Source: Candidatus Altarchaeales archaeon (GTDB lineage Archaea > Altiarchaeota > Altiarchaeia > IMC4 > SCGC-AAA252-I15). From it: a DNA stretch of 64,000 nucleotides. Within the stretch, counting starts at the first letter, position 1; each line of letters opens with the position of its first letter. The notes under the pieces are model-generated. The model was not told the origin of the DNA, ran no database searches, and worked only from the letters and a program-made list of their open reading frames with translations. Of this stretch, positions 47,297 through 52,877 are shown in pieces. The stretch is taken from NCBI GenBank assembly GCA_014727915.1, contig WJMO01000006.1, positions 391,882 through 455,881 of the forward strand, in the 5' to 3' direction. Position numbers and translations under genes: made by a program.

Positions 47297-48835
47297 TCAA
47301 CCGCCTCTAAAGCGGGCTACGATGTGCTCTCTGCCCAGGCTGAGCATGAAAGCCGCAGCCTTGGGGCCCCGGTCATTTCCGATGAGCACCCTGTATATTG
47401 CCTTGAACAGTTTAGGCGGCTTAACACCGTTGGACCTGGCGACCTCGTATATTTTCTTGTGGAATTCCTCCGAGCTCCAATCACCATCCAGAAGACCCAC
47501 AATCTCCTCCAGGCACTTTCGCTCGGAGTCAGATAGGCTGTCCCTCTCCCTACCAGCCTCTCCCTCCGAGTTCAACGTGAAGCGCAGATGATCGGGGCCG
47601 TATTTTTGAACCCAGTTGCCAGCCAACCTAACACGCCTATTAAGCCTTTCAACGTCGAATCCAGCGTATCCCATAGACTCCGCCTTGGAGGAGTACTCGC
47701 CTTCGAACGCCACTTGAGCTAGAACCGCGCATAGGGTGAAGGGAACATTAAGATACTTGGGTTCGCCCACTTGAGCGAGGTCGTACATCCTCGCCAGACC
47801 CATATCACCTTCCTGTCTCTTGTGGTATATCCGCTCGGCCTCGTCGTACTCGTCTGTGAGGTTGGATAGCAGGGATAGGTTAATGTCCCGCTGCTTCATG
47901 AGCCGCTTGTACATGAAGTACTTAAGCACCTCCGGCTCGGCTATCACCAGCCAGTCAGCCAAGGTTATGACGTTACCCTTCGAGCTGGATATCTTCTCGC
48001 CGTTCAAGGTGAAGAACTCATATACCAGGGGGACGGGGGGCGTCCAGTCGAACACCTCCTCCGATATTATCTTGCTGGTCTCATACGAGCCCCCTGCGGC
48101 AGCATGGTCTTTGCCGAAGGGTTCGCAGGTTACCTTGAACCGCCTCCACCGGGCAGCCCACTCAACCCTCCACGGCAGCTTACCCATGCCCTTGGAGGCG
48201 TCGCTGACGCCCTTGTGGCCGCATCCCTCGACTTCGCCGCCGGACACACCGGTTGAAACGCACTCGTAATCCGCCTTTAACCCATCGACTCCAAAGACTT
48301 TTGTGGTGCTTATCTTCCCGCATTTCTCGCATATGGGAGTCCAGGGCAGATAATCCTCTGGCAGGGGATCACGCCGGAATCTGTTCAATATATCCCTGAT
48401 TTCAACCCTCTTCTCAAACGCTGTTCTGATCTCCTCCACCAACTCCCCGTTCCTATAGAGGTCGGTGCCAGAGTGGACTTTAGGTTTTACGCCGAACTCT
48501 GACAAGTCCTGTATAAAGGGTTGGGCGAAGTGGTCGACGAAGTTACTGTGGCATCCGTCCAGGTCGGGGAGGTCCTTGACGGGGAACCCAAGATAATCAT
48601 CTAATCCTTCCATTCCAGCGGGCACCTTCCGGAAGGGGTCGCTGTCGTCGCTTATCCAGATCAACTCCGCCTTGAGACCCGACTCCAACGCAGCCTTCCG
48701 TATGCAGTCCCCGCGGATGACATCGCTTGCATTACCGATCTGAGGACGCCCAGATATGGAAGTGCCGGTGGCTATGACATGCTCCCCGCCCCGCTCTTCC
48801 AGCAGGCTGACAACATCGTCGCTCCAGTGCAACAT
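47297..48835 (-). CDS. lysK: Lysyl-tRNA synthetase, class I
   Basis: The 512-residue class I LysRS found in most archaea, unrelated to bacterial class II LysS. The HIGH-equivalent is PQIGN in TGTSISGRPQIGNASDV (about 21-37), with WISDDSDPFRKVP, paired Cys (CEKCGK, CVSTG...GCGHKG), and KISSSKGN as the KMSKS loop (about 281). The C-terminal anticodon-binding helical domain is complete. A divergent spacer with the C/D sRNA lies upstream. Confidence 0.97.
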   Translation of the reverse strand: MLHWSDDVVSLLEERGGEHVIATGTSISGRPQIGNASDVIRGDCIRKAALESGLKAELIWISDDSDPFRKVPAGMEGLDDYLGFPVKDLPDLDGCHSNFVDHFAQPFIQDLSEFGVKPKVHSGTDLYRNGELVEEIRTAFEKRVEIRDILNRFRRDPLPEDYLPWTPICEKCGKISTTKVFGVDGLKADYECVSTGVSGGEVEGCGHKGVSDASKGMGKLPWRVEWAARWRRFKVTCEPFGKDHAAAGGSYETSKIISEEVFDWTPPVPLVYEFFTLNGEKISSSKGNVITLADWLVIAEPEVLKYFMYKRLMKQRDINLSLLSNLTDEYDEAERIYHKRQEGDMGLARMYDLAQVGEPKYLNVPFTLCAVLAQVAFEGEYSSKAESMGYAGFDVERLNRRVRLAGNWVQKYGPDHLRFTLNSEGEAGRERDSLSDSERKCLEEIVGLLDGDWSSEEFHKKIYEVARSNGVKPPKLFKAIYRVLIGNDRGPKAAAFMLSLGREHIVARFRGG

Positions 48836-48858
48836 CAGTATAGATAATAAAATGAAGC

Positions 48859-48866
48859 TATTAAAG
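48859..48866 (+). promoter_or_regulatory. TATA-like box of the box C/D sRNA
   Basis: TATTAAAG lies about 25-30 nt before the predicted 5' end of the guide RNA (48886-48889), consistent with independent transcription. Confidence 0.55.
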
Positions 48867-48888: not shown

Positions 48889-48948
48889 GGCGGTGTGATG
48901 ACGCGAACAACCTCTGACATATGATGAGTGATGGGCGACCTGACCGCC
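48889..48948 (+). ncRNA. Box C/D guide sRNA (rRNA 2'-O-methylation)
   Basis: All elements of an archaeal C/D sRNA occur in order: terminal stem GGCGG (48889-48893), box C GTGATGA (48895-48901), a 12-nt guide CGCGAACAACCT, box D' CTGA (48914-48917), a 3-nt spacer, box C' ATGATGA (48921-48927), a 12-nt guide GTGATGGGCGAC, box D CTGA (48940-48943), and terminal stem CCGCC (48944-48948). Both guides have the standard 12-nt length. By the +5 rule, the D' guide points to U2552 of the 23S A-loop and the D guide to C1402 of 16S (E. coli numbering, recalled rRNA sequence). It would direct fibrillarin with Nop5 and L7Ae. Confidence 0.88.
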
Positions 48949-48949
48949 A
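48923..48949 (+). repeat. 27-nt direct repeat, copy 1 (within the C/D sRNA)
   Basis: Identical to 49025-49051; covers the C' core, second guide, box D and 3' stem of the sRNA. Confidence 0.95.
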
Positions 48950-49024
48950 AAAAAAGGTCACAAGCACTTCACAGGTGCGTCCCGTGAACGCGGGATGCGC
49001 CGTTTGTCGTCGGCAAACTCCGAC
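48950..49024 (+). other. Hairpin-rich spacer between the two repeat copies
   Basis: Contains an 11-bp stem (GGTGCGTCCCG paired with CGGGATGCGCC through a 6-nt loop, two G-U pairs) and then TCGTCGG-CAAACT-CCGACGA, a perfect 7-bp hairpin that runs into the second repeat copy. No coding potential is evident. It may be a second structured RNA or the leader of the downstream gene. Confidence 0.4.
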
Positions 49025-49051
49025 GATGAGTGATGGGCGACCTGACCGCCA
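49025..49051 (+). repeat. 27-nt direct repeat, copy 2 (partial C/D module)
   Basis: Exact copy, 102 bp downstream, of the C'-guide-D-stem part of the sRNA. Box C' here reads ACGATGA (one mismatch from consensus), then the same guide GTGATGGGCGAC and CTGA. No matching C, first guide and D' precede it, so it looks like a partial or decaying duplicate. Confidence 0.8.
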
Positions 49052-49073: not shown

Positions 49074-49952
49074 ATGAAGGACGAGATCAAGAGGAGCATC
49101 GATCATATGCTGGAGACGTCGCCGATCCGGAGGACCTTCTGGCACCAGGACGAGAAGGTGGAGGGCCTCAGGTATGGGATACAGCAGGGCGACGACGGAG
49201 CCGTGGTCGGAGACCTCGTGTACAACATGGAAGGCCCCTACCCCTTGAAAACCGGGCGGAAAACCGGTTTACTCCACAGTATAACCGATATCATCGGCAT
49301 GGGCGCAAGGCCACTTTACGCGTTCAATGCCATGCAGGTGGACAGCATAAAAGAGGCGGTTGAGGTTTCTGAGGACCTGAAGAAGCAGGCCAACGGAATC
49401 GGCGTTCCCATCATCGGCGGGAACACCCAGATGGAGAACGACCTGAAGCCGTGCATAAGCTTCGTCGTAGTTGGCAAGCTCATCCGGGAGCCATTGGCCG
49501 ACTGCGGCTGCAGGATAGGGGACAAGATAGTCATGGTAGGCCATGTTATGGACGGCACCCTTGGGGAGAGGGTGTACCGGGCGAAGGTCAAGTACAAGAC
49601 AATGCTCGAACTCTACGATGAAGCGGTGGATATCCATGCGGTCAAGGACGCGAGCCGGGGAGGGTGGTTCGGGAACCTGGCTGAGATGCTGGTGAAGAGC
49701 AAGCGGGGATTCAAGATAACGGCAGTGCCATACGCGAGCCCGACTAGGTACATGGGCACTTACATGATAAGCGTCCCCAAAAAGGAAGTGGACAAGGTGG
49801 TGTCAGTGGCAGCCAGGAACAAGTGCCCATGCGTGGAAGTCGGGCAGGTGATGAAAGGACTTTACATAAAGCTCGGAGACGAGATGCTGGTAACTGAGGC
49901 TAGGATGAAGAAGCTGATAAGGGGAATGCCCTACCGGAAGCCGAAAAAATAG
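49074..49952 (+). CDS. AIR synthase-related protein (PurM/ThiL/SelD superfamily)
   Basis: 292 residues from ATG 49074; the longer frame upstream reads through the duplicated RNA repeat and is rejected. Superfamily features are GDDGAVVGD near residue 37, the HSITDIIGMGARPLYAFNAM segment binding ATP/Mg (about 65-84), GGNTQ, GDKIVMVG and KDASRGGWFGNLAEML (about 190). It resembles the archaeal AIR-synthase-related proteins of unknown substrate (including the methanogenesis-marker-2 group) rather than PurM itself, since the PurM motifs are incomplete. Confidence 0.8.
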   Translation: MKDEIKRSIDHMLETSPIRRTFWHQDEKVEGLRYGIQQGDDGAVVGDLVYNMEGPYPLKTGRKTGLLHSITDIIGMGARPLYAFNAMQVDSIKEAVEVSEDLKKQANGIGVPIIGGNTQMENDLKPCISFVVVGKLIREPLADCGCRIGDKIVMVGHVMDGTLGERVYRAKVKYKTMLELYDEAVDIHAVKDASRGGWFGNLAEMLVKSKRGFKITAVPYASPTRYMGTYMISVPKKEVDKVVSVAARNKCPCVEVGQVMKGLYIKLGDEMLVTEARMKKLIRGMPYRKPKK

Positions 49953-52778: not shown

Positions 52779-52790
52779 TTTGCCGCCGGC
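52779..52790. repeat. tRNA-Phe 3' end, partner of the 52138 duplicate
   Basis: TTTGCCGCCGGC, the tRNA-side copy of the 12-nt direct repeat. Confidence 0.45.
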
Positions 52791-52877
52791 GAGATTTGAA
52801 CTCGCGACACCTCGGTTTCTACGCATTCGAGTTTTTGCGCTTCAGCCGAGTGCTCTCCCAGTCTGAGCTACAGCGGC
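52781..52877 (-). tRNA. tRNA-Phe (GAA) with a 23-nt intron
   Basis: A full cloverleaf folds on the minus strand: 7-bp acceptor stem GCCGCTG/CGGCGGC (one G-U), D arm GCTC/GAGC, anticodon stem CTCGG/CCGAG, anticodon GAA (52841-52843), T arm GCGAG-TTCAAAT-CTCGC, and discriminator A at 52781. A 23-nt intron (52817-52839) interrupts the loop after position 37, the canonical archaeal site; it forms its own CGCA/TGCG stem. CCA is not encoded. Confidence 0.95.

Follow-up and report, generated by a model that had tools for sequence, protein, structure and literature searches.

The sRNA locus

The window, a 64 kb stretch of DNA, is part of contig 3 in an archaeal genome of 1.8 Mb that is 90.6% complete (G000). 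Within it, a class I lysyl-tRNA synthetase gene and an AIR-synthase-related gene enclose a 60-nt candidate box C/D sRNA gene, a dispersed repeat and a partial duplicate of the sRNA. The nearest relatives of the synthetase share 61-62% identity and include proteins from Candidatus Altiarchaeota/Altiarchaeales. The features of the locus are:

47297-48835, minus strand: class I lysyl-tRNA synthetase gene, a divergent and conserved neighbour (Pfam PF01921, E=1.3e-110)
48857-48866, plus strand: putative promoter element of the sRNA, TATA-like and AT-rich, proposed from the sequence
48889-48893, plus strand: 5' strand of the terminal stem, GGCGG, pairing with 48944-48948
48895-48901, plus strand: box C, GTGATGA, with positions 2-7 (TGATGA) invariant (n=13 sequences)
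48902-48913, plus strand: D' guide, CGCGAACAACCT, predicted target 23S A-loop with +5 on the U2552 equivalent (pairing and compensatory changes)
48914-48917, plus strand: box D', CTGA (sequence and alignment)
48921-48927, plus strand: box C', ATGATGA (sequence and alignment)
48928-48939, plus strand: D guide, GTGATGGGCGAC, predicted target 16S with +5 on the C1402 equivalent (pairing and comparison)
48940-48943, plus strand: box D, CTGA (sequence and alignment)
48944-48948, plus strand: 3' strand of the terminal stem, CCGCC (compensatory changes)
48950-49024, plus strand: dispersed repeat of 75 nt directly 3' of the sRNA, with a hairpin (48974-49001) and an H-type pseudoknot (49003-49024)
49025-49051, plus strand: exact 27-bp duplicate of 48923-48949, with what is left of C', the D guide, box D and the stem, from sequence
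49074-49952, plus strand: AIR-synthase-related gene, the conserved downstream neighbour (Pfam PF00586/PF02769)

The 60 nt at 48889-48948 read GGCGG-T-GTGATGA-CGCGAACAACCT-CTGA-CAT-ATGATGA-GTGATGGGCGAC-CTGA-CCGCC, and our re-reading of the boxes, guides, spacer and stem bore out exactly the layout and coordinates claimed in an earlier sequence-only reading of this DNA. The C and C' boxes conform to RUGAUGA and the D and D' boxes to CUGA, the length lies within the 50-70 nt of archaeal box C/D sRNAs, both 12-nt guides lie within the 10-12 nt of archaeal rRNA guides and are paired at the +5 position, and a terminal stem of 5 bp closes the C/D k-turn. This strict architecture occurs once in the window, compared with zero occurrences in 100 dinucleotide shuffles. 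The same genome carries a fibrillarin gene (G000:C3:355666-356289, E=1.7e-79), and TTTAT-like boxes are found ~30 nt upstream of the sRNA in relatives too. At gathering scores an Rfam search assigned no family to the locus, all C/D families falling below threshold; the best match, to sR2 (RF01139), scored 32.4 bits (E=1.3e-5) against a gathering score of 42. ARAGORN called nothing at the locus, and a viral origin of the sRNA is unsupported, with 0 matches in a viral search. Judged by its sequence, the RNA at 48889-48948 is a textbook case of the archaeal box C/D sRNA, and the genome around it is Altiarchaeota-like. Elsewhere in the window, a tRNA gene at 52781-52877 (minus strand) is matched by Rfam without an ARAGORN call, probably because it has an intron after the anticodon.

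Pairing of the guides with rRNA

The guides were compared with the 16S and 23S genes of the same genome, with E. coli numbering assigned from the local sequence. The D' guide forms 11 contiguous pairs, including one G-U, with 23S positions 2525-2536 (GGGUUGUUCGCC), placing +5 on U2529, the first U of U-GUUC and the equivalent of E. coli U2552. The D guide forms 10 contiguous pairs, again including one G-U, with 16S positions 1357-1368 (ACCGCCCGUCAC), placing +5 on C1361, the equivalent of E. coli C1402. Both guides thus pair in the organism's own rRNA with +5 on the sites that the sequence-only reading had named. Positions 1 and 2 of the D guide, beside box D, are unpaired with 16S, and the A at position 2, opposite C1399, is kept in most carriers. 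In most archaea C1399 faces an A of the C1402 guide and G1405 a U, though a perfect complement is only 1-2 mutations away.

When the guides were shuffled, 0.7% of trials with the D' guide and 12% with the D guide reached the observed score at some place in the rRNA; at the single named sites the corresponding frequencies were 4.5e-5 and 1.8e-4. The original argument was that two independent hits make chance unlikely, but the hit of the D guide taken alone is not statistically unlikely (12%), and 23S C2558 fits this guide about equally well. The 16S assignment of the D guide is favoured instead by comparison across archaea, considered below.

Conservation and guide order

We searched 394 archaeal genomes with guide patterns allowing one mismatch, using reversed patterns as the control. 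The genomes are draft assemblies. The 16S guide was found in 150 of them, with zero matches for the reversed pattern; the A-loop guide turned up in 54, and its control gave one stray match among the genomes listed. The Altiarchaeota-like set comprises 29 genomes (G000-G028), and 22 of them have both guides within one RNA. No such linkage was found outside this set among the 394 archaea, the guides there being far apart or one of them missing. Sixteen of these 22 have the lysyl-tRNA synthetase gene and/or the AIR-synthase-like gene next to the sRNA, so that the search for a syntenic sRNA beside lysK in relatives, proposed in the earlier reading, recovers a shared locus.

The terminal stem is paired in 100% of cells of the alignment (n=13 sequences), with compensatory changes at three of its five pairs, and pairing falls to 18-65% if one strand is slid. 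The base beside box D is variable across relatives, the boxes are invariant and the guide cores are nearly constant. Where the A-loop guide does change it covaries with the 23S rRNA: GCGAACAACC occurs with GGUUGUUCGC, GATGAACAACC with GGUUGUUCAUC in G025 and G027, and GTGAACACCC with GGGUGUUCAC in G055 and G075, two genomes that we label Thermococcus-like by inference.

In 13 of the 22 two-guide genomes the A-loop guide precedes the 16S guide, and in the other 9 it follows. Since both orders occur at the same locus (the A-loop guide leads in G000, G007, G009 and others, the 16S guide in G001, G004, G005 and G006), the order has been swapped in place with the guides kept together.

Some sRNAs depart from this plan. 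Extra A-loop guides with long or hairpin D'-C' linkers are present at L152 (reverse strand 1348-1595, G007) and L156 (G024), where the partner guide is another one, such as ACCTTATGAGCA. In the f7 lineage of Altiarchaeota (L123 in G027 and L135 in G026), the sRNA lies shortly after a T-arm-like sequence ending CCGGCCCCA. This sequence possibly marks a tRNA gene cotranscribed with the sRNA; despite it, ARAGORN called no tRNA upstream of the f7 sRNAs.

Relationship between the A-loop guide and RlmE

The protein methylase RlmE/FtsJ was sought at two cut-offs, E<1e-25 for strong matches and 1e-15 for weaker ones. Strong matches are present in 152 of the 394 archaea. Not one of the 29 Altiarchaeota-like genomes has a match even at 1e-15, and full-length FtsJ/RlmE is absent from the genome of the window, where the best match covers 49 of 181 positions (E=2.4e-6). 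Its absence, which the sequence-only reading had suggested checking, thus extends from the window's genome to its relatives, and a U2552 guide that replaces RlmE would be found in just such a genome.

Across the 394 archaea, a strong FtsJ match occurs in one of the 54 genomes with the A-loop guide, against 20.8 expected (Fisher p 1.7e-11), and outside Altiarchaeota in 1 against 12.9 expected (p 6e-7), p values that overstate the evidence because shared ancestry is left in; the mutual exclusivity with RlmE is partly a reflection of that ancestry. At 1e-15 the overlap is 3 genomes. The sole strong overlap, G284, is a one-mismatch pattern match with the mismatch inside the guide core (GAAACAGCC), and its A-loop guide match may be spurious. 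From these distributions, the sRNA appears to do at U2552 the job that a protein methylase does in other archaea.

A dispersed element downstream of the sRNA

The repeat directly 3' of the sRNA consists of a variable hairpin followed by TTTG-TC-GTCGG-CAAA-CT-CCGAC, and can form an H-type pseudoknot (TTTGTCGTCGGCAAACTCCGAC). Over 32 copies, the two strands of pseudoknot stem 1 vary in a compensatory manner (TTTG/CAAA, TTAG/CTAA and TTTC/GAAA) and stem 2 is nearly constant; the length ranges over ~60-110 nt. The pattern matches 7 times in the window's genome and 51 times across 11 of 30 genomes, all of them Altiarchaeota-like, with zero control matches. Further copies are at L087, L088, L090, L098, L099, L103, L225, L236, L238 and others. 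Two viral matches lie within or next to predicted coding frames, on unrelated contigs.

In 22 of 32 copies at least 13 bases of adjoining sequence recur in the flanks of the element, compared with 59 of 1000 random positions. Exact direct repeats of 14-85 bp, matching the end of a gene (tRNA, C/D sRNA or protein gene), often flank it. The 27-bp copy at 49025-49051 follows the element in this way; we rejected it as a second sRNA, since it lacks a C box, a D' guide and the 5' strand of the stem. A different C/D sRNA at L087 (1352-1575, G008) is likewise followed by the same element and then by a partial second copy of itself. At L088 (reverse strand 1401-1706, G002) two successive insertions accompany three copies of a gene 3' end, all encoding ITYYLVDRVRF-stop by different synonymous codons, as if each insertion had supplied a replacement gene end.

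A link to TnpB and omega-RNA was considered because the layout of the element is guide-like, and was rejected: 8 of the 11 carriers, including the window's genome, have no TnpB domain match. The copies and their flanks suggest a possible small mobile element, one whose insertion would duplicate a gene end or supply it anew. It may be more novel than the sRNA.

Proposed function and alternatives

Taken together, these data indicate that the locus is very probably a functional box C/D sRNA gene directing methylation of 23S U2552 and 16S C1402 and replacing RlmE in Altiarchaeota. In this scheme the gene would be transcribed and the RNA would fold into a C/D k-turn closed by a terminal stem and a C'/D' k-loop, and would form an RNP with L7Ae, Nop5 and the genome's own fibrillarin. 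The D' guide would then direct 2'-O-methylation of U2552 in the A-loop and the D guide that of C1402 in the decoding centre/P site, and in Altiarchaeota the sRNA would take the place of RlmE/FtsJ at U2552. The retention of both guides in one RNA raises the further idea, speculative and on balance unlikely, that the decoding centre and the A-loop are modified in a coupled way by a single RNP, which might for instance serve as a cross-subunit maturation checkpoint. Were this so, the in-place swap of order would imply selection on the linkage of the guides and not on their position.

Since a shuffled D guide so often scores as well as the real one, its target needs comparative evidence, and the site to be weighed against 16S C1402 is 23S C2558, six bases downstream of U2552, which the guide might address instead of, or besides, the 16S site. 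In G000 and most Altiarchaeota, guide positions 2-11 pair with 23S UUCGCCCAUUAA with no mismatch and one G-U, placing +5 on C2558, and the duplex energies for 23S and 16S are close (-16.7 vs -19.3 kcal/mol in G000; -17.0 vs -17.4 kcal/mol in G004). Variation in the guide nevertheless follows 16S. Several lineages have GACGGGCGG or GACGGGCGA in place of GATGGGCGA, giving better 16S pairing and a C opposite A in 23S, and those with C at guide position 8 (some also with G at position 2) improve the match to 16S while breaking that to 23S. The Thermococcus-like G055 and G075 retain TGATGGGCGA although their own 23S reads UUCACC, which breaks the alternative site; the D guide of the f7 Altiarchaeota, in which both guides are still present, fits 16S only; and Pyrococcus abyssi is listed with a Cm at the C1402 equivalent (PMC11542601). 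Because the guide variants, G055/G075 and f7 all fit 16S and not 23S, comparison across archaea favours 16S C1402 as the conserved target, and we consider it improbable that the guide is aimed at C2558. An additional effect at C2558 may nonetheless occur in the window's own organism.

The role of the RNA could also be sought outside methylation. A folding chaperone that holds the 16S and 23S segments, with methylation secondary, would be in keeping with the bridging proposed for archaeal dual-guide sRNAs (PMC4644070, PMC7994747) and with the persistence of two guides in one RNA across Altiarchaeota. The U2552 guide, however, appears to stand in for a methylase and is nearly confined to genomes that lack RlmE. 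This points to the methyl group as the selected product and makes a chiefly chaperone function very unlikely in our view. That the locus is a chance C/D-like sequence or a decayed copy is suggested by the repeat element and truncated duplicate directly 3' of it; but no box, guide or stem strand is damaged, 22 genomes conserve them, and the shuffled sequences yielded no strict architecture, so we give this reading almost no credence. A methylation guide for U2552 and C1402 remains our preferred interpretation of the sRNA.

Comparison with known systems

For C/D sRNAs, a guide length of 10-12 nt, the +5 rule and an RNP of L7Ae, Nop5 and fibrillarin are established (PMC7994747), and gene rearrangement and varied guide pairing are known in archaea (PMC4644070, PMC7994747). 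U2552 is predicted to be guide-methylated in 5 of 7 archaea (PMC4644070), P. abyssi sR25 being predicted to guide 23S U2669, the equivalent of U2552 (PMC2584109), and P. abyssi is listed with both Cm1369 (= Cm1402) and Um2669 (= Um2552) (PMC11542601 Table 2). The earlier statement that both nucleotides are 2'-O-methylated in other organisms is thus borne out within a single archaeon. Haloferax 16S Cm1352 was ruled out as a C1402 equivalent; PMC2584109 has it as an unidentified modification aligned with C1404.

Neither target is therefore new for a C/D guide, both having been reported in Pyrococcus, which shares with the window's sRNA the two target nucleotides, the RNA class and the +5 rule. 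In the Thermococcus-like genomes, however, each of the two guides has an RNA of its own, encoded at distant places on the chromosome, whereas the Altiarchaeota sRNA joins them in one. In G110 and G049, homologues that share the TGATGGGCGA D guide pass the sR2 gathering score, but the D' guide of sR2 is unrelated to that of the window's sRNA. In eukaryotes the same positions are RNA-guided by U43 snoRNA (plant 18S Cm1645 = C1402) and yeast snR52 (Um2921 = U2552) (PMC11542601; PMC2584109); these are separate RNAs, and the likeness lies in the target positions. Bacteria methylate the same U2552 and C1402 with RlmE/FtsJ and RsmI (PMC11542601 Table 1), protein-only enzymes of which RlmE is absent from the window's genome.

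Against this background, what is new here is the conserved linkage of the two guides in Altiarchaeota, the in-place swap of their order and the mutual exclusion with RlmE, for none of which did we find a report in the open literature, to which our search was limited. The pairing of guides has been kept through the order swap across an uncultured archaeal phylum. An RNA guide and the protein enzyme RlmE appear to be alternatives for one near-universal ribosomal methylation, and their mutual exclusion is a domain-wide, testable pattern.
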